Positions 15,673 to 25,215 of a stretch of 64,000 nt of DNA are shown piece by piece. Under the pieces are notes generated by a model. The model saw only the letters and a program-made list of their open reading frames with translations, did no database searches and had not been told where the DNA came from. Source of the DNA: an uncultured Thiothrix sp. (lineage in GTDB: Bacteria; Pseudomonadota; Gammaproteobacteria; Thiotrichales; Thiotrichaceae); NCBI RefSeq assembly GCF_937873765.1, contig NZ_CALMZC010000042.1:1-64000 (forward strand), written 5' to 3'. The translations under genes and the position numbers were made by a program. How positions within the stretch are numbered: the first letter of the stretch is position 1; each line of letters starts with the position of its first letter.

Positions 15673-16617
15673 TCAGAGTGCAACACTCAAGCTACTCGAC
15701 ACTGCTCCTTCGCTCATATGACAACCAAAGTATTTAGCACGTTCAAGAACTTGGCTAGCCCAATTTTGGTGAGTACTTGGCTCGCACATAGCGCCATTGA
15801 ATTGAAAAACCGCAGGCACATTGTTAGTTAAAATTTTTTTTGCCGCTAAATAATCATTCTGAGTGACTTTTAAGGCTTGATGGATAATCGGGATTTGACT
15901 GGGGTGAATCACTGTTTTCCCTACCAAACCATGTAGTAAATCTCGCTTAAATTCAGCCTTAAGCACTTGGTGATCACGAAAGCTTTCAAAGACAGGAGCC
16001 GTTAAACGAAAACCTGCTGGTATGAATTGCGCGATCAACATCCCTATGACATAAGCTAAAGGCCCATCATACAAGGTATGTTGTGGATCCGTCCGAAGCT
16101 GTAAACAGGCTAATAAATCATTGCCTCCAATACGCAACACCAAAATACGCGACTTTAAGCCTGCCTGCTGTAAGCGCAAACGCAACTCACGCACTGCATG
16201 AGCATCTAAAATTTGAGCGGTTTCCAAAGTCGGCATAAAGCAAAAACTAGTAGGTGCCGCCTCGATTACTCGTTGCCAATCTGGAAATGAATCATGATCA
16301 AACTTTGGTAAAACCAAACCATCTAATACACAAATACACTTTTCTTGTAGAAGATTCAAAGCCATTTGCGGATGACGGGGACGAACAAATACTAAAGGCT
16401 TAACTCGGCGCTCAGTATGATAAAGCACCTCTAAACAAGCGTATAAGTTGACTAAAGCCGCCTCAACCTCATGTTCAGCAATTGCATCTTCTAAACAAAT
16501 CACCAAAGAACGTAAATCAGGAATCTTTTGTTCCAATATGACCTCAAGCAAATCAGAACGAGTTGCTGGCATATATAAAGTGGCACCTAATTGGTAAGGT
16601 GATAGTTTGTTATTCAT
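15673..16617 (-). CDS. CitE-like (HpcH/HpaI) lyase of the Ter cluster
   Basis: TIM-barrel lyase/aldolase-like enzyme of 314 residues. Recognisable elements are GATLYMPATRSDL at the start, the acidic CLEDAIAEHEVEAAL, the Arg-containing LVFVRPRHP, and IGGNDLL and GKTVIHPSQIP near the C-terminus. In the HpcH/HpaI/CitE family these bind Mg2+ and the CoA-ester or pyruvate-like substrate. The family branch found next to TerD, TRSP and StiP genes is proposed to act in a biosynthetic pathway for a nucleoside-like metabolite. Its start overlaps the stop of the StiP/PELOTA gene by 4 bases, so the four enzymes are one translationally coupled operon. The exact substrate is unknown. Confidence 0.8.
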   Translation of the reverse strand: MNNKLSPYQLGATLYMPATRSDLLEVILEQKIPDLRSLVICLEDAIAEHEVEAALVNLYACLEVLYHTERRVKPLVFVRPRHPQMALNLLQEKCICVLDGLVLPKFDHDSFPDWQRVIEAAPTSFCFMPTLETAQILDAHAVRELRLRLQQAGLKSRILVLRIGGNDLLACLQLRTDPQHTLYDGPLAYVIGMLIAQFIPAGFRLTAPVFESFRDHQVLKAEFKRDLLHGLVGKTVIHPSQIPIIHQALKVTQNDYLAAKKILTNNVPAVFQFNGAMCEPSTHQNWASQVLERAKYFGCHMSEGAVSSSLSVAL

Positions 16618-17687
16618 ATAGTTCTTTTTATAATAGTGACAGCGCGATAAGGTGCTATGCGGTCTCCAACCACATTCAGAGCAATACCTCGTTGCTTAGC
16701 TAGATAGCTTAATAAACGAAGGTTTGGATCCTGCGAAGACTGAACTAATATGGCATCGGGTAAGCGACGCATGACCGCACGGGTTGCTTCAGCAATACCA
16801 GGTTTCAGCAAGTTTAGGTTTTTAATAGCATAATCTGTAATAACTTGCTGTAAGGCTACTTCGGCTTGTCCAGCTAAATTGTGACGTACTTCAGAAGTCC
16901 ACGCTAATGGGGAAATCGGTGGCAATTGGGCATATTCAGCTTCAATGCTTGCAATAAACTCCTTACTGACATCATGCTCAGTCAAATGCTGATAGAACAT
17001 ACACTGATGCCAACCAGCATCTGATGGCCAGATTGAGCGTGAGACTAAGCCAGAAATGGTCGAACCCAGAATACCGAAGGGAATCAACCAATCATCACCT
17101 GAAGCAGCTAACCATGAACGACCAGTAGGGTCAGATAAACTCACAAAAGGAATTTCTCGCTGCGGATAGCGTTGAGCTAGAGAAGCTGTGAGCTGAGTAA
17201 AAATCGCCCCCTTCCCCACCCAACCATCTAAAAAGACTAGATGTTCAAATGTATGCCGAGCCTCTATCCAAGTTAGTGCACTCGCATCAATACCTCGATC
17301 ACGAATAATACTGACGCCATAGTGGCAAGCATCCACGCCCATTGCGCGTAAAGTACGTACTAATAAAACCCCCAAGGGCACACCCGCACGCACAAAACTA
17401 ACTAATACGACAGGCTGTTGCGGGCGATGCTCCCGAATAGCTTGAGCTAATTGCTGTACTTCCAAAGCTAAACGTTGCTTGCCGGCTTGGAGTGCTTGCC
17501 TAAACAGCTGCATATGTTCAGGCGATGGCGGCTTTTCCAAGGTTAGCATCTCGGAGTAATGCAATTGACCTGATTGAATCAACTGCTCTTTCTGTTCAAC
17601 CGGAGTATCAGCTAAAACACGTAAGCGCAGTAAAAACTGAATATCATCAATGTTATAAGAACCCGAGAAGCCTTTATAATCCGTCAT
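16614..17687 (-). CDS. StiP-type phosphoribosyltransferase-like protein with C-terminal PELOTA domain
   Basis: A 357-residue protein of the Ter operon. The N-terminal two thirds match the family known as StiP or PRTase_1, with VVLVSFVRAGVPLGVLL, SIIRDRGIDASAL and VFLDGWVGKGAIFTQL, the last resembling a PRPP-binding loop. Databases sometimes call the family a cysteine protease; comparative genomics suggested a phosphoribosyltransferase. The C-terminal 70 or so residues (AVMRRLPDAILVQSSQDPN to the end) resemble the PELOTA RNA-binding-like domain that is usually fused or adjacent. It overlaps the HAD gene by 14 bases and the CitE-like gene by 4. Function is inferred from family and context only. 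Confidence 0.78.
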   Translation of the reverse strand: MTDYKGFSGSYNIDDIQFLLRLRVLADTPVEQKEQLIQSGQLHYSEMLTLEKPPSPEHMQLFRQALQAGKQRLALEVQQLAQAIREHRPQQPVVLVSFVRAGVPLGVLLVRTLRAMGVDACHYGVSIIRDRGIDASALTWIEARHTFEHLVFLDGWVGKGAIFTQLTASLAQRYPQREIPFVSLSDPTGRSWLAASGDDWLIPFGILGSTISGLVSRSIWPSDAGWHQCMFYQHLTEHDVSKEFIASIEAEYAQLPPISPLAWTSEVRHNLAGQAEVALQQVITDYAIKNLNLLKPGIAEATRAVMRRLPDAILVQSSQDPNLRLLSYLAKQRGIALNVVGDRIAPYRAVTIIKRTI

Positions 17688-18414
17688 GCCATTGCTCTGC
17701 TAACTGACTTTTCGCCGGAAACGCTAGAAAATCACACTGCCTCATAAACTCAAAGTCAGACAAGCTATCGCCCATACCAAACACAGGTCGTCTTCCATAA
17801 CTGATTTGGCATCGTTTAAGCACTTCTGCAACCGCTTGTCCCTTGCTAATGGGCAGAGGAATCAATGCTAGATTATTATCATTTTGGTGGAAATAAAAAC
17901 CTTCTAAATCAAGCTGTTCTAATAATAACTGTTTCACTTGATATAAATCAGAGGCCTGTCGATTACTTTTTAGCACTGCATAGACGGCTGTGTTTTCCAC
18001 ACTCTCTAACCAGCCCCGTAAATCTAAACCTGCTTGCTCACCTAACTCTAAACCTTGTTTTAGCAAATGCTGGAGGCGTGCTTGATAAGGAGCTAACAGT
18101 GCTTGGGTAAGGCCATGCCATGCTGGCTCAATCTCACCTTCAGGTGTCAAAATGACCCCACCATGCAAACACACCGCGCCATGACGAAAAGGAATTTGTA
18201 CACGTTGAAACGACTTAATCCCCCTTGCAGTCACAGGCATGACTATCATGTGCTCTAAAGCCCAGTGGATGAACTCATGCTGCCACGGATAAAAGAAACT
18301 AAGTGGCTTTCCATCAGCACCCTTAGCCACTAATAGCGATGGCTCTGCGGTTGACATCTTGCGAGCTGTTTGAAACAAGGTATCATCTAAATCAGTGAGA
18401 AGAATCGGCTTCAT
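17674..18414 (-). CDS. HAD-superfamily hydrolase of the Ter cluster
   Basis: Predicted Mg2+-dependent phosphatase of 246 residues. Motif I is TDLDDTLF with Asp8 as nucleophile and Asp10 as general acid. Thr62 in PVTARG is a candidate motif II residue, and Lys191 with GMGDSLSDFEF (215 onward) gives motifs III and IV. Cof-type HADs are similar, but the location inside a four-gene overlapping operon with PRTase-like and lyase genes points to dephosphorylation of a Ter-pathway intermediate. It overlaps both neighbours (4 and 14 bases). Confidence 0.82.
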   Translation of the reverse strand: MKPILLTDLDDTLFQTARKMSTAEPSLLVAKGADGKPLSFFYPWQHEFIHWALEHMIVMPVTARGIKSFQRVQIPFRHGAVCLHGGVILTPEGEIEPAWHGLTQALLAPYQARLQHLLKQGLELGEQAGLDLRGWLESVENTAVYAVLKSNRQASDLYQVKQLLLEQLDLEGFYFHQNDNNLALIPLPISKGQAVAEVLKRCQISYGRRPVFGMGDSLSDFEFMRQCDFLAFPAKSQLAEQWHDGL

Positions 18415-19523
18415 GGATAGAACTCCACCACTTTAGCTTGTAGGCTTGCAACCAAACTAGTATCTAGCAAAGCAGGCGGTGTTTCGGTACAGAGAAAGAT
18501 ACGATCATAAGCACTTGGGTCGACGTTATATAAGAAATTTGCGATACCTTGCCCGTAGTTATCATGCAAGGCATAACTACGCTGAATACTATGCCCTAAA
18601 GCAATTGGTGAGCGGGTTGTTGCACTGAAATGTACCTGTGCACCTATTTGCTCTAAGGATTCTGCTAATAAAAAGGGGAGCCATACAAACTCACCAGTTC
18701 CTAAGACTAAAATACGCTCATGCGCTTGCACATCTAACTGTGCAGCCAATTCAGGTAGGGTATGGGTTTGTACACCCAAACGCCCCCAATCATATGCACA
18801 ATTGGCTTGCCATGAGCCTGTGCCAACTACATCAACAGCAGGCATCTCAGGTGGTGGGGAATGATTCGCTTCCCAATGCCATTGTCCCTCTAATAAACTA
18901 GCCTGACTAGCACGTGCACCTAATTGGGCAGCCGCCTGCCCAGCTGACCAATCAGTTAAAGTAGTCACAATAATCCGCTCAAAAGAATCTTTGCCCTTTT
19001 CCTGTAAAGCTGTGACTAAATTAGCAAAGGTTTTACCGGTTGAAGCCTCATCATCAACTAGCACTAAAGAACGTCCCATTTTCAACAACTCTTGATGAGA
19101 AACTGCTTGAGGATAATGTAAGACTTGCTGAGTAGCATGACTATGCTCTTCGCGAAACTCTAAAAAAATAGGAGCGGGCAAAGGATGGCGAGTAGTACAC
19201 AAATATAAAGTGTCATTCCGTGTTCGACTTAAAGCTTGTTGTATTCCTGCACCTAAAGCGACCGCTGTTTCTGCCATGCCGATCACCACTACTGGCCCTG
19301 GTAAATCAAGTGGAATACGTGCAGCCAAAGCATTCATAGCCGCCCGCATCTGTGAGGGAGCTACTGGAATGTGCCGTCCAAGCACTTTAGAAACAAATAA
19401 AAAAGCACGCTTAGGATTACGACGTTGTGCAAACCCAAACAAATCATCAGCTTGATAATCACTCACAGGTGGAGCTAAAGACAAAGTAAGCGTGCCAGTC
19501 TGTAATTTCACACTTAAAGCCAT
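18411..19523 (-). CDS. Phosphoribosyltransferase-TRSP fusion of the Ter cluster
   Basis: A 370-residue two-domain protein. Residues about 30-210 form a type I phosphoribosyltransferase-like fold with the PRPP loop LVLVDDEASTGKT (acidic pair and Gly-Lys-Thr at 157-165). Residues about 225-370 match the TRSP domain, with GTGSWQANCAYDWGRLG, LVLGTGEFVWLPF and RSYALHDNYGQGIANFLYN. This architecture is characteristic of Ter-associated biosynthetic operons. GGGGAG lies 3 bases before the ATG. It is the first gene of the minus-strand enzyme operon and starts 88 bp after the TerD-protease gene. Confidence 0.85.
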   Translation of the reverse strand: MALSVKLQTGTLTLSLAPPVSDYQADDLFGFAQRRNPKRAFLFVSKVLGRHIPVAPSQMRAAMNALAARIPLDLPGPVVVIGMAETAVALGAGIQQALSRTRNDTLYLCTTRHPLPAPIFLEFREEHSHATQQVLHYPQAVSHQELLKMGRSLVLVDDEASTGKTFANLVTALQEKGKDSFERIIVTTLTDWSAGQAAAQLGARASQASLLEGQWHWEANHSPPPEMPAVDVVGTGSWQANCAYDWGRLGVQTHTLPELAAQLDVQAHERILVLGTGEFVWLPFLLAESLEQIGAQVHFSATTRSPIALGHSIQRSYALHDNYGQGIANFLYNVDPSAYDRIFLCTETPPALLDTSLVASLQAKVVEFYP

Positions 19524-19611: not shown

Positions 19612-20759
19612 TTAAGCAGCACACTCAACTCGCCAAATAGCCTGCTGTGTTTGCGTAACAATTTGTGCTGCTGTCAACACAGGCGCTCTCTCAGCAACCT
19701 TACTATGGTTTACCTGAGCAGCATCTAGTAGAGCTATCGCTAATACACCGCGAATTGCAAAATTCATGTTCTGCGTATTGGTAAAGCTAGATGAGACCAC
19801 ACCTATCACCCCCCCATACTATCGAGCAAAGGGCTGCCACTAGAGCCGGGTTGGATAGGTGCAGTAAACTGCAATAAACGCACATCATTATGTGCCCCAA
19901 ATAAACCCGAAATCACACCTTGAGTGACTTGCACCCCACTCCCCATAAGGCTAGCTAATGGATAACCCAAGGTTGTAATAGCTTCAGCCAATTGCACTTG
20001 TGTCTGACGGAATGGTAAAGGCATGAGCGGCAGATTGGTATTTACCCGGACTAAAGCAAGATCATTCGTGCTATCACTGATCATCACTTCGCCTAGCATT
20101 TTACCTTGCATAGAACTTAGTTGGATCTGCGAGGCTCCCTCGACTACATGTGCATTGGTCATAAATACTTGCGGGGCAACTAAGAAGGCTGAACCTGTCC
20201 AGGTATCAGGGTTCTGCCGACTGGAATCAGGATGATTATCCCCTGCTAGAAATGGGGAGCGCTCATCAATCTCTCGTCCCATACGTCGGCCTAAAGCGGC
20301 TAAACCATAAGCAGACGTTTCCGCTAAGGCTCTGACCTTCCACTTTCCCTGCCTTAAGTAAAACTCAGCCACAATCATGGCAGAGGCTGTCTCAGTCATT
20401 AAGGATAAACTATGCTGAAACACATTCGGCAAGCTCAGTGTAAGATCTCCGCCTAAATCCAAAGGCCCCAAAGCACCATAGCGATACAGTACTACACCTA
20501 ACCTAGCAATAGTGGGGGCAGGTAAATGCTTTATTTTTAAACTCAGGCCATAGCCACAAGCATCATTATCGAGGGTGGTGGTCATCCAAGCTGGATCGGG
20601 TAGGTGACCTAATTGGGCAGGCACGACTAACTGTCTAGCTTCATTTAGTGGTAAGACTGCGATTCCAATATCATGTTTAATAGGCCGACTAAAACGCAAA
20701 CTTAAAGACCAGTAGTCACCTTCTAAGGCCAAATTAGCGCCTATTGATAAATTTATCAT
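19612..20759 (-). CDS. TerD-like domain fused to a trypsin-like serine protease; reading frame broken at a G7 tract
   Basis: The 0-frame runs 317 codons from ATG 20759 to a TGA at 19806-19808. Residues about 1-165 are a TerD-like beta-sandwich (MINLSIGANLALEG, AEFYLRQGKWKVRALAE) that has lost the DLDAS and GDNRTG calcium motifs. Residues about 185-317 are an S1/HtrA-like protease with His204 (TNAHVVEG), Asp233 (TNDLALV) and Ser307 (GSSGSP). Frame 0 stops right after DSMGG. The -1 frame, entered through G GGG GGG TGA, continues VIGVVSSSFTNTQNMNFAIRG for 65 residues, exactly the strands expected after the catalytic serine. An 8-G tract or ribosomal -1 slippage would give about 382 residues. The start was set at MINLSIG, the usual TerD beginning; GGTAGG lies about 10 bases upstream. 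It is probably an intracellular stress-triggered protease. Confidence 0.75.
19806..19815 (-). other. G7 slippery heptamer followed by TGA
   Basis: On the minus strand the codons read ATG GGG GGG TGA. The run G GGG GGG fits the X XXY YYZ rule for -1 frameshifting in the correct frame, and the shifted codons read GTG ATA GGT, continuing the protease. A homopolymer of this length is also a classic site of phase variation and of sequencing error. Confidence 0.7.
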
Positions 20760-21074: not shown

Positions 21075-22094
21075 ATGCGTATTTGGTTCAATAAAACATT
21101 CTCCAGTATTAGCTCTATTTTTTATAATCTGCGCCAAGCTAAGGATGTAGGTCAGCTCACTATTATTGCTAGTCATACCAACGCTTATGCTCCTGCTTTA
21201 GGCGCAGCTCACGAAGCTTATGTTGAGCCTAGTGGATTAGTCGGTGCAGCCTATTTAGGCTGGTGCTTGAAGTTTTGCCAAGAACAGCGAATCGATCTGT
21301 TTTGGGTAGCGAAAGAAGCTCGTTACTTAAGCAACCATAAAGAAAAATTTGCACAGATAGGTACTAAACTATTAGTAGTGGCTACTTCAGAAGTTTTAGG
21401 CCTATTAAATAATAAAGGCGTATTTTATCGCAGCCTACCTCCCGAAGTTGCGCTGACTATGGAGAATATTAGTGTGCGCACTAAGGAGGAGTTTGATCAA
21501 GCAGTTGCTGAGCTTTCTCAGCGCCATGCTAGCCTTTGTGTCAAACCTGCTGTTTCTATTTATGGCTTGGGCTTTCGTATTTTGGATACCACTCAAGCCA
21601 GCATTACTCACCTACTTCAAGGGATTGAATATCAAATTCCTTTAGACGAACTCCGAGCTGGCATGGAGAAAACACCCGTATTTCCCGAGCTATTAATCAT
21701 GGAAAATTTAAATGGTCACGAATGGAGCGTAGACTGTGTCGGGCGTCAAGGTCAGCTAATCTGTGCTATCCAGCGCCGTAAATTAGCCAAAGGCTTAGGC
21801 CAAGTAATTGATAATGATGCTGAAATTCAAGGTATGGTAGAACGCCTTACTCTGCATTTTCAGTTGAATGGTATTTTTAACATCCAATTTAAATTGGGCG
21901 CTCAGGGGCCTAGGTTATTAGAAATTAATGCTCGACCTTCAGGTGGCATTGGTATGGCCTGCTTGGCTGGCGTCAACCTAGCAGAGTTAGTTTTGAAAAG
22001 CTTAGAGTCTGAAGTGGTAGCTGTGCCGCCCATTCAGTATGGAAGACGAGTATCTGAACTGAATGCCCCAGTCCTATTAGAGGCTGCCAGTTAA
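21075..22094 (+). CDS. ATP-grasp enzyme of the Ter cluster
   Basis: ATP-grasp-fold ligase of 339 residues, the type found in Ter biosynthetic operons. An N-terminal preATP-grasp region (QLTIIASHTNAYAPALGAA) is followed by the central ATP-binding region (SLCVKPAVSIYGLGFRIL, LLIMENLNGHEWSVDCVG) and the metal-binding LLEINARPSGGIGMA near residue 300. Such enzymes form amide or similar bonds via acylphosphates; in this setting it is proposed to ligate an amino acid or similar group to the pathway's metabolite. It is divergent from the enzyme operon and precedes the terD genes. Substrate is unknown. Confidence 0.83.
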   Translation: MRIWFNKTFSSISSIFYNLRQAKDVGQLTIIASHTNAYAPALGAAHEAYVEPSGLVGAAYLGWCLKFCQEQRIDLFWVAKEARYLSNHKEKFAQIGTKLLVVATSEVLGLLNNKGVFYRSLPPEVALTMENISVRTKEEFDQAVAELSQRHASLCVKPAVSIYGLGFRILDTTQASITHLLQGIEYQIPLDELRAGMEKTPVFPELLIMENLNGHEWSVDCVGRQGQLICAIQRRKLAKGLGQVIDNDAEIQGMVERLTLHFQLNGIFNIQFKLGAQGPRLLEINARPSGGIGMACLAGVNLAELVLKSLESEVVAVPPIQYGRRVSELNAPVLLEAAS

Positions 22095-22189
22095 CTCAAC
22101 TTTAAGTCGGATTTATTTTTTACAACCGCTTTATTAAGTCAATATAACTATTTAATAAACTTCTTAATAAACTAAAAATGGAGGCGATG

Positions 22190-22780
22190 ATGGCTGTTAG
22201 TTTAAGTAAAGGGCAACGTATTACCCTAGAAAAACAAGGTGGCAGTACCTTAACTAAAGTACGTATGGGTCTAGGTTGGGACCCCATTAAGAAAAAAGGT
22301 GGCTTATTTGGTAGCTTACTGGGTGGTGGCGGTGGAGATATTGATTTAGATGCCTCGTGCTTACTCTTAGATGCACAAAAAAACCTGTTAGATGTAGTTT
22401 GGTTCCGTCAATTACAAAGCAGGGATAATTCAATTACACACTCTGGAGATAATCGTACAGGTGAAGGCTCTGGTGATGATGAAGTTATTTATGTTGATTT
22501 AACTCGTATCCCCAATAGCGTTGCGCATTTAGCTTTTACTGTCTGCTCCTTCCGTGGACAAACCTTTAATGAAGTCGAAAACGCTTTTTGCCGCCTAATT
22601 GATGATAGCAATAATACTGAACTCGCTCGCTTCAATCTCTCTGATAAAGGTTCTCATACTGGCGTAGTGATGGCGATTATTAGTCGCAGCGGTACCAGCT
22701 GGCAAATGAAAGCTGTTGGTACACCCACAGCGGGAGCGATTGCGAATGATATGATGCCTGCAGTCATAGCTGCCATCTAG
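22190..22780 (+). CDS. TerD-family protein 1
   Basis: TerD-fold beta-sandwich of 196 residues. The Ca2+-binding motifs are present: DIDLDASCLLLD near residue 45 and HSGDNRTGEGSGDDEVIYVDL-like sequence after it. A Gly-rich insert (GGLFGSLLGGGGG) precedes the first motif. The start MAVSLSKGQ at 22190 is preferred over ATGs at 22178 and 22187, because GGAGG sits 5 bases upstream and TerD proteins begin with this motif. The C-terminal half lacks the usual AEFY..RNGEWKF strand and is more divergent. It is first of four consecutive TerD-family genes, 11 bp before the next. Confidence 0.88.
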   Translation: MAVSLSKGQRITLEKQGGSTLTKVRMGLGWDPIKKKGGLFGSLLGGGGGDIDLDASCLLLDAQKNLLDVVWFRQLQSRDNSITHSGDNRTGEGSGDDEVIYVDLTRIPNSVAHLAFTVCSFRGQTFNEVENAFCRLIDDSNNTELARFNLSDKGSHTGVVMAIISRSGTSWQMKAVGTPTAGAIANDMMPAVIAAI

Positions 22781-22790
22781 GAGCATTAAC

Positions 22791-24005
22791 ATGTCTATTA
22801 CTCAATTAGTGGCGGGTGCCAATTGCGCTATTCCTAAAGAACTGCTGAAGGTAGAAGTTCAATTAACGCCATACCAGTTAAATGGTGTAGAAGTTGACAT
22901 CTCTGCTTTTCTCTTAGCTAGCAATGGCAAAGTGCGGGGTGATGAGGACATGGTGTTTTATGGGCAACCCAGCCCCGGTAATGGTAGTGTTGCTTTAACG
23001 AGTAATACCGCAGGGCAAGCAAGCTTCAATGTTAATTTACCTGCCTTGAATCACCTTACTGAAAAAATTGCCTTTACCGCCACGATCCATGAAAACCGTC
23101 AATCCTTTGGCGCTTTTCAAAGTGTAAAGGTAACGGTCAAATCTGCTACGGCTACTTTGCTGGAAGCCAATATCAGTACGAATGGCATGATTGAGTCCGC
23201 TCTAATCTTAGGCGAAATCTATTTACGCCAAGGGCAATGGAAATTTCGCTCTGTAGCCCAAGGTTTTGCCGGTGGCTTACAACCTTTGGCTGAGCATTTT
23301 GGTGTAGAAGTGAGCAGTCCTACGCCCAGCCCTGCACCTGCACCTGCACCTGCACCTGCACCACCCAAAAAACCTGTTTCTTTAAATAAAATCACCCTTG
23401 ATAAATCCCGTCCGACTGTCAGCCTTGAGAAAAAGACGGAAGGGTTTGGTGAGATTCGCGTCAATTTAAACTGGAATCGCGCCTCAGCGGCACCGAAATC
23501 AGGGGGTGGTTTATTAGGTGGGCTGTTTGGTGGCAGTGCAAATAAACGCGTGGATTTAGATGTTGGTTGCTTATATGAGCAGGCAGATGGCTCTATCAGT
23601 GCTATTCAAGCTTTAGGTAATCGCTTCGGCTCTTTTCATACTGACCCTTATATCGAACTCAAGGGTGATGATAGAACGGGAGCAATTAGTGAAGGTGAAT
23701 GGCTGCATATTAATGGGCAGCAATGGCAAACATTCCGACGTATCTTGATCTATGCCTTTATTTATGAGGGTGCACCCAATTGGGCACAAACTGACGGTGT
23801 AGTCACTATCTATGTTCCTAATGAAACTCCCTTAGAAATTCGCCTAACTGAAGGTAGTAATCATTTAGGCATGTGTGCGATTGTGTTATTAGAAAATGAT
23901 CGTGGCACACTCAAGGTTAATCGTGAAGTTCGTTATTTCCAAGGCCATCAAGAATTAGATCGAGCCTACCATTGGGGCTTAAATTGGCGAGCAGGCTCTA
24001 AATAA
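22791..24005 (+). CDS. Double-domain TerD-family protein with Pro-Ala linker
   Basis: A 404-residue protein with two TerD-type domains. The first (residues about 1-175) keeps the fold signature (VDISAFLLASNGKV, GEIYLRQGQWKFRSVAQGF) but its calcium loop is degraded to LTSNTAGQ. A (Pro-Ala) linker follows at residues about 178-195, encoded by five perfect CCTGCA repeats. The second domain (about 200-404) has VDLDVGCLY and KGDDRTGAISEGEW, and a Gly-rich insert like that of TerD protein 1. The AGGAG before the ATG overlaps the stop region of the previous gene. It may act as a bivalent scaffold in the Ter membrane complex; that role is inferred. Confidence 0.85.
   Translation: MSITQLVAGANCAIPKELLKVEVQLTPYQLNGVEVDISAFLLASNGKVRGDEDMVFYGQPSPGNGSVALTSNTAGQASFNVNLPALNHLTEKIAFTATIHENRQSFGAFQSVKVTVKSATATLLEANISTNGMIESALILGEIYLRQGQWKFRSVAQGFAGGLQPLAEHFGVEVSSPTPSPAPAPAPAPAPPKKPVSLNKITLDKSRPTVSLEKKTEGFGEIRVNLNWNRASAAPKSGGGLLGGLFGGSANKRVDLDVGCLYEQADGSISAIQALGNRFGSFHTDPYIELKGDDRTGAISEGEWLHINGQQWQTFRRILIYAFIYEGAPNWAQTDGVVTIYVPNETPLEIRLTEGSNHLGMCAIVLLENDRGTLKVNREVRYFQGHQELDRAYHWGLNWRAGSK
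23331..23360 (+). repeat. Five tandem CCTGCA hexamers
   Basis: Perfect in-frame hexamer repeat encoding the Pro-Ala linker of the double TerD protein. Slippage would change linker length by two residues without breaking the frame. Confidence 0.9.
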
Positions 24006-24028
24006 AATAAATGAAAGGAGAACCAAAT

Positions 24029-24607
24029 ATGGCATTGAGTTTACAAAAAGGCGGCAATCTTTCTCTCAGTAAAACAGACCCCAGTTTAACTAAAATTTTA
24101 GTTGGCTTAGGTTGGGACGAACGCACCACTGATGGTAATAGCTTTGACCTAGATGCCAGCGCTTTCTTACTAGCAGCAGGTGATAAGGTACGTAGTGACA
24201 GCGATTTTATTTTCTACAATCAATTAAAGTCTCCTGATGGCTCTGTTGAGCATACGGGTGACAACCGCACTGGCCAAGGTGCTGGCGATGATGAATCGCT
24301 CAAAGTAGATTTAAGTAAAGTCCCTGCAGAAATCACCAAAATTGCCTTTACTGTGACGATTCATGATGCTGAAGCGCGGCGGCAAAATTTTGGTCAAGTG
24401 AGTAATGCCTTTATCCGCATCGTTAATGATTTAACGGGTGCAGAAATCGTTCGTTATGACCTAGCCGAAGATTATTCAACTGAAACCGCCATGATCTTTG
24501 GCGAGCTGTATAGATACAACAGTGAGTGGAAATTCCGCGCTGTTGGCCAAGGTTATGCAGGTGGACTTAAAGCAATGTGCGATCAGTTTGGTATTCGGAT
24601 CGGTTAA
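24029..24607 (+). CDS. terD: TerD-family protein 3 (canonical)
   Basis: Canonical TerD/TerE-type protein of 192 residues: [13 protein letters not shown] start, [18 protein letters not shown] and [15 protein letters not shown] calcium-binding motifs, [18 protein letters not shown] and the C-terminal [20 protein letters not shown] set the start at 24029 because AAAGGAG lies 8 bases upstream and MALSL is the family N-terminus; an ATG at 24011 would precede that ribosome site. TerD proteins bind Ca2+ and associate with membrane TerC. It is very similar to the next gene, suggesting tandem duplication. Confidence 0.93.
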
Positions 24608-24636
24608 TTTTTAAAACTAATTAAGGAGCAACAACA

Positions 24637-25215
24637 ATGGCAGTCAGTTTACAAAAAGGTGGCAATGTTTCTCTCTCTAAGGAAGCACCCGGTTTAACAA
24701 CCATTACCGTCGGTTTAGGTTGGGATTTACGTCAAACGGATGGCACTGATTTCGACTTAGATGCCTCTATTTTCATGTTAGGTGAGAATGGTAAAGTCCT
24801 CTCAGACGACTCTTTCATTTTCTACAACAATAAAAAATCAGCTTGCGGCAATGTCGAACATCTGGGTGATAACCGCTCAGGTGCCGGTGATGGCGATGAT
24901 GAACAAGTTAAAGTTAATTTAGCTGGCTTAGCTGATGCTGTTAAAAAACTAGTATTCTGTGTAACTATTCATGACGCCGAAGCGAGACGCCAAAACTTTG
25001 GTCAAGTGAGCAATGCTTATATTCGTCTCGTCAATGTAGCAGATGGCAAAGAAATTGCCCGTTATGACTTATCGGAAGATGCTAGCGTCGAAACAGCAAT
25101 GCTGTTTGGTGAAATCTATCGCCATAATGCTGAATGGAAATTCAAAGCGATTGGTCAAGGCTTCGCTGGTGGCTTAGGCCCTATGGCTTCTTCTATGGGT
25201 GTTAACCTTGGTTAA
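24637..25215 (+). CDS. TerD-family protein 4 (canonical)
   Basis: TerD/TerE paralogue of 192 residues with [58 protein letters not shown] and [24 protein letters not shown] lies 8 bases before the ATG. It is 29 bp after TerD protein 3 and followed by a strong terminator, so it ends the ATP-grasp-TerD transcript, with TerC/TerB downstream read partly or separately. All calcium motifs are intact. Confidence 0.93.

Follow-up and report, generated by a model that had tools for sequence, protein, structure and literature searches.

The locus described here can be compared with several known systems. Programmed -1 frameshifting, as in dnaX and the IS3-family elements, involves a slippery heptamer of the form X_XXY_YYZ that stands in phase and is followed by a stop codon. 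Poly-G phase-variable genes, for example those of type III methyltransferases, carry a short coding G tract that is able to slip. Homopolymer indels and pseudogenes found as singletons are also known in prokaryotic genomes (PMC3711429). Such cases fall into the GeneTack singleton class 'H-pseudo / Error', in which the break is seen in one genome, the orthologues are intact, the interruption lies at a homopolymer and there is no conserved shift site. At the protein level, the relevant comparison is with trypsin-like proteases of the HtrA/DegS/HhoA/MarP type, which share with our gene a Trypsin_2 domain, HtrA-type similarity and the His-Asp-Ser motifs.

The gene in question is encoded on the minus strand of the window, a stretch of 64,000 nucleotides from an uncultured Thiothrix sp. 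Its frame-0 part (19806-20759) consists of 317 codons and a TGA and comprises a TerD-like N-terminal domain together with most of an HtrA/trypsin-like protease domain. The start codon that matches the proteins of relatives is the ATG at 20759. At its other end (19806-19818) this frame reads ATG GGG GGG TGA, preceded by the residues GSSGSPLLDS, so that the stop codon (19806-19808) lies immediately 3′ of a tract of seven G (19809-19815), the site of the frame break. From inside the tract, the -1 frame reads GG VIGVVSSSFTNTQNMNFAIRG...IWRVECAA followed by a stop. This continuation (19612-19809; 65 codons past the run, plus the stop) encodes the last protease strands and a conserved C-terminal tail. 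Proteins of related bacteria align to both parts of the gene, in adjoining frames. Thus, the geometry given by the first-pass annotation is right in both coordinates and phase: frame 0 does end in this way past GSSGSP, its product has 317 residues when counted from the ATG at 20759, the 65-codon -1 continuation of the protease is real and matched by orthologous proteins, and an X XXY YYZ heptamer in the correct phase, with a stop directly after it, is present on the minus strand.

The protein was compared with domain profiles and known structures. The Trypsin_2 profile (PF13365) scored 77.8 bits against the frame-0 part (cut-off 27.6) and 87.1 bits, as a complete match, in the orthologue of T. 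eikelboomii. For the TerD profile (PF02342), the score of the frame-0 part was 24.6 bits, with a curated cut-off of 25.3; the predicted fold of the N-terminal part of the T. eikelboomii orthologue matches the TerD crystal structure 3ibz (E 1.1e-5). By sequence, the same orthologue matches structures of HtrA, HhoA, DegS and HTRA2. The motifs NAHV, TNDLAL and GSSGSP are kept in all aligned sequences and are consistent with the motifs of a His-Asp-Ser triad. The gene differs from the described proteases by its N-terminal TerD-like domain, and the window copy also by ending past the serine motif. AlphaFold modelled the TerD-like domain with confidence but the protease part only with low confidence; the latter being unreliable, we do not argue the structural effect of the truncation from models.

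The neighbours of the gene form a Ter biosynthetic cluster of C-C_Bond_Lyase, StiP-PELOTA, HAD hydrolase, PRTase_2-TRSP, ATPgrasp_Ter and four TerD genes. On the minus strand lie the PRTase_2 and TRSP gene (18411-19523) and the StiP and PELOTA_1 gene (16614-17687). The divergent neighbour on the plus strand is the ATPgrasp_Ter gene (21075-22094), downstream of which are the four TerD-domain genes (22178-25215, plus strand). Among the genomes searched for both, PRTase_2 was present in every one that bears the fusion, while two near-complete genomes have the PRTase_2 gene and lack that of the protease. The latter is therefore distributed patchily, being found in 2 of 9 genomes of the genus; it is an accessory member of the Ter cluster, and such a distribution implies that its loss should be tolerated. 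In one relative (G011) the protease gene is present twice (one copy at G011:C57:152822-153958); both copies have equal scores and one has a partial PRTase_2 match beside it, which suggests that the gene may have been duplicated recently.

We found close orthologues in 10 of the 94 other genomes searched, with identities of 59-79%. Named records include those of T. eikelboomii (79% identical), T. caldifontis, T. lacustris, T. fructosivorans and Ca. T. singaporensis, and some of these species are also represented among the numbered genomes. Within the genus, a second genome of the window's own species was looked for and not found. The record of Ca. T. singaporensis contains undetermined residues in the protease gene as well as a frame fusion of StiP and the lyase within the Ter cluster, and this assembly is possibly error-prone. 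In all orthologues from Thiotrichaceae (about ten species), a single open frame of about 376-381 codons runs across the break point. Where the window has AGT ATG GGG GGG TGA, T. eikelboomii has AGC CAA GGT GGC GTG CTG, and a G run at this position is absent from every orthologue examined. Two genomes from a different family within this class also carry the TerD-protease fusion with the same C-terminal tail in one frame. The comparison with homologues that the first-pass annotation called for thus yielded no orthologue truncated at the break and a conserved downstream part.

These results bear directly on the suggestion that the gene gives both the 317-residue and a full-length protein, either by programmed -1 ribosomal frameshifting at G_GGG_GGG or by slippage during transcription. 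The slippery heptamer is in the correct phase, the stop comes immediately after it, and a shift would yield a peptide that matches the orthologues. However, the slippery site occurs in no orthologue, and all of them are read in one frame; with the site in one species and a single frame in all others, a programmed site would have no ancestry. Stimulators are absent as well: folding of the 84 nt that follow the run is no stronger than that of shuffled sequences (z = +0.69), and no SD-like motif was found in the 30 nt upstream of it. In E. coli, GGN codons in the A site shift less than AAN and UUN codons, and G_GG.G_GG.U without a stimulator gave 0.018%, the lowest value in the heptamer series (PMC4066793); the heptamer of the window is G_GG.G_GG.G. 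In contrast to dnaX and the IS3-family elements, then, the site is not conserved, lacks stimulators, has a weak heptamer and stands in a gene that is unsplit in relatives. Intact orthologues and missing stimulators contradict programmed frameshifting, and we consider it very unlikely.

In the -1 frame, moreover, a GTG shares bases with the TGA stop, and translational coupling at this GTGA overlap could in principle yield a separate C-terminal fragment of 65 residues that complements the truncated protease. Yet the G run lies directly against the GTG, so that there is no room for a ribosome-binding site at the usual distance, and the gene is split in no relative, which makes coupling the least credible of the explanations considered here.

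To date the break, we can turn to the constraint on the two parts of the gene. When proteins were matched to the two frames, identity to T. eikelboomii was 79% upstream of the break and 78% downstream of it. In the pN/pS comparison with the same species, amino-acid identity is 80% in the upstream part and 83% in the -1 frame tail, and pN/pS is 0.176 in both. Of the amino-acid changes in the tail, 2 are unique to the window branch and 3 to the other branch, small counts in a tail of only 65 codons. Equal pN/pS and so few changes indicate that the break is either recent or not real. Selection has thus acted on the tail as part of this gene over almost the whole period since the two species diverged. 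An old pseudogene is disfavoured by the unrelaxed tail; compatible with the data are a mutation of recent date, an artefact and a bypass of the break. Intact orthologues combined with a tail free of relaxed constraint, the pattern by which a recent frameshift is recognised, are what we observed.

The same pattern would follow if the organism had eight G and an intact gene, and one G had been dropped from the consensus by an assembly or base-calling error. All orthologues are intact, constraint on the tail is not relaxed, and an artefact would equally yield the same constraint on both parts. Moreover, the affected site is a homopolymer in a draft assembly of 69 contigs. According to a large study of frame transitions, most singletons confirmed by homology are expected to reflect errors of sequencing (PMC3711429).

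Other G tracts of the genome provide a control. In the window there are 5 G7 runs, while 2.7 are expected, a count attained in 15 of 100 shuffles, and the whole genome has 244 overlapping G7 matches. A G7 run is thus not unusual by itself; the only notable thing is that this one falls exactly where a conserved gene is interrupted. From stretches around listed G runs of the same genome we sampled 78 tracts of at least seven G, and scored a tract as in frame when it lay inside a single open frame that was 150 codons or longer and extended at least 20 codons beyond the run. This held for 67 of the 78 tracts, including 13 of 14 with eight G and 5 of 6 with nine. The exceptions inspected lay at the ends of genes, at junctions where genes overlap, or between genes. 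Several runs had been flagged as possible frame switches by a first scan; they proved to be junctions, gene ends, intergenic or in frame. The earlier remark that another G7 run of the window reads correctly in frame holds, and the genome-wide support for it is much stronger.

Long G tracts do occur inside genes of this genome, as exemplified by a tract of eleven G (C15:41939-41949) that is read in frame within a gene. The translation of this gene looks like chorismate synthase (aroC). At none of the other inspected tracts of at least seven G was there a break comparable to that in the protease gene.

Since the other G tracts keep the frame, systematic miscalling is unlikely; genes broken at further G tracts, as systematic homopolymer error would produce, were not seen among the tracts inspected. 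Even longer tracts that should be harder to call are unbroken in the sample, and no further frame break was seen along the synteny of the window with T. eikelboomii (about 38 kb). This argues against an assembly error at the protease gene, which we regard as rather unlikely although it is the most serious of the competing explanations.

It is also conceivable that populations of this filamentous sulfur bacterium contain forms with seven and with eight G, which switch the Ter-cluster protease off and on, respectively. Slippage can occur in G tracts of this length, and the tail is conserved. But the tract, which would be expected to be a conserved repeat at a phase-variable locus, is conserved in no relative, and tracts of G8-G11 inside other genes, one of them apparently in aroC, are unbroken, so such tracts look incidental here. 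The tract further differs from those of poly-G phase-variable genes in being just seven or eight long. A reversible switch, one of three readings offered by the first-pass annotation, is therefore possible without having specific support, and we think it improbable. Of the other two, programmed frameshifting is contradicted as described above, and a lost base fits best; a real slipped-strand deletion explains that loss at least as well as a miscall in the assembly.

The explanation we favour, with some confidence, is a recent contraction by one base of a G8 tract that had arisen by chance, leaving a truncated and probably inactive protease. Substitutions in this lineage may have produced a tract of about eight consecutive G past the codon of the catalytic serine, from which replication slippage would recently have deleted one G. 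On this reading, the loss of one G is what brings frame 0 to a halt at TGA. The most likely product in the cell is the 317-residue protein, which would retain the TerD-like domain along with the catalytic motifs and be devoid of the last protease strands and the C-terminal tail. In the T. eikelboomii orthologue, alignment to HtrA-type structures reaches about 20 residues past the break. The match to the MarP family scores 84.8 bits with the intact orthologue but 66.3 bits with the truncated form. One would expect a trypsin-like protease without the strands beyond its catalytic serine to have no activity. The break shows no essential difference from GeneTack singletons, a class with which mutation and error are both compatible.

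The locus thus appears to be an ordinary frameshift of a single genome, and it warns against taking every in-phase heptamer for programmed recoding. In practical terms, when this genome is annotated, a conserved protease of the Ter cluster will be cut short or overlooked at this locus. The Ter cluster is a stress-response cluster, and the fusion protease belongs to it as an accessory member. Should the tract prove to be mixed in the reads, this would point to switching of a protease of a stress system, and only then would the break be of wider biological interest.
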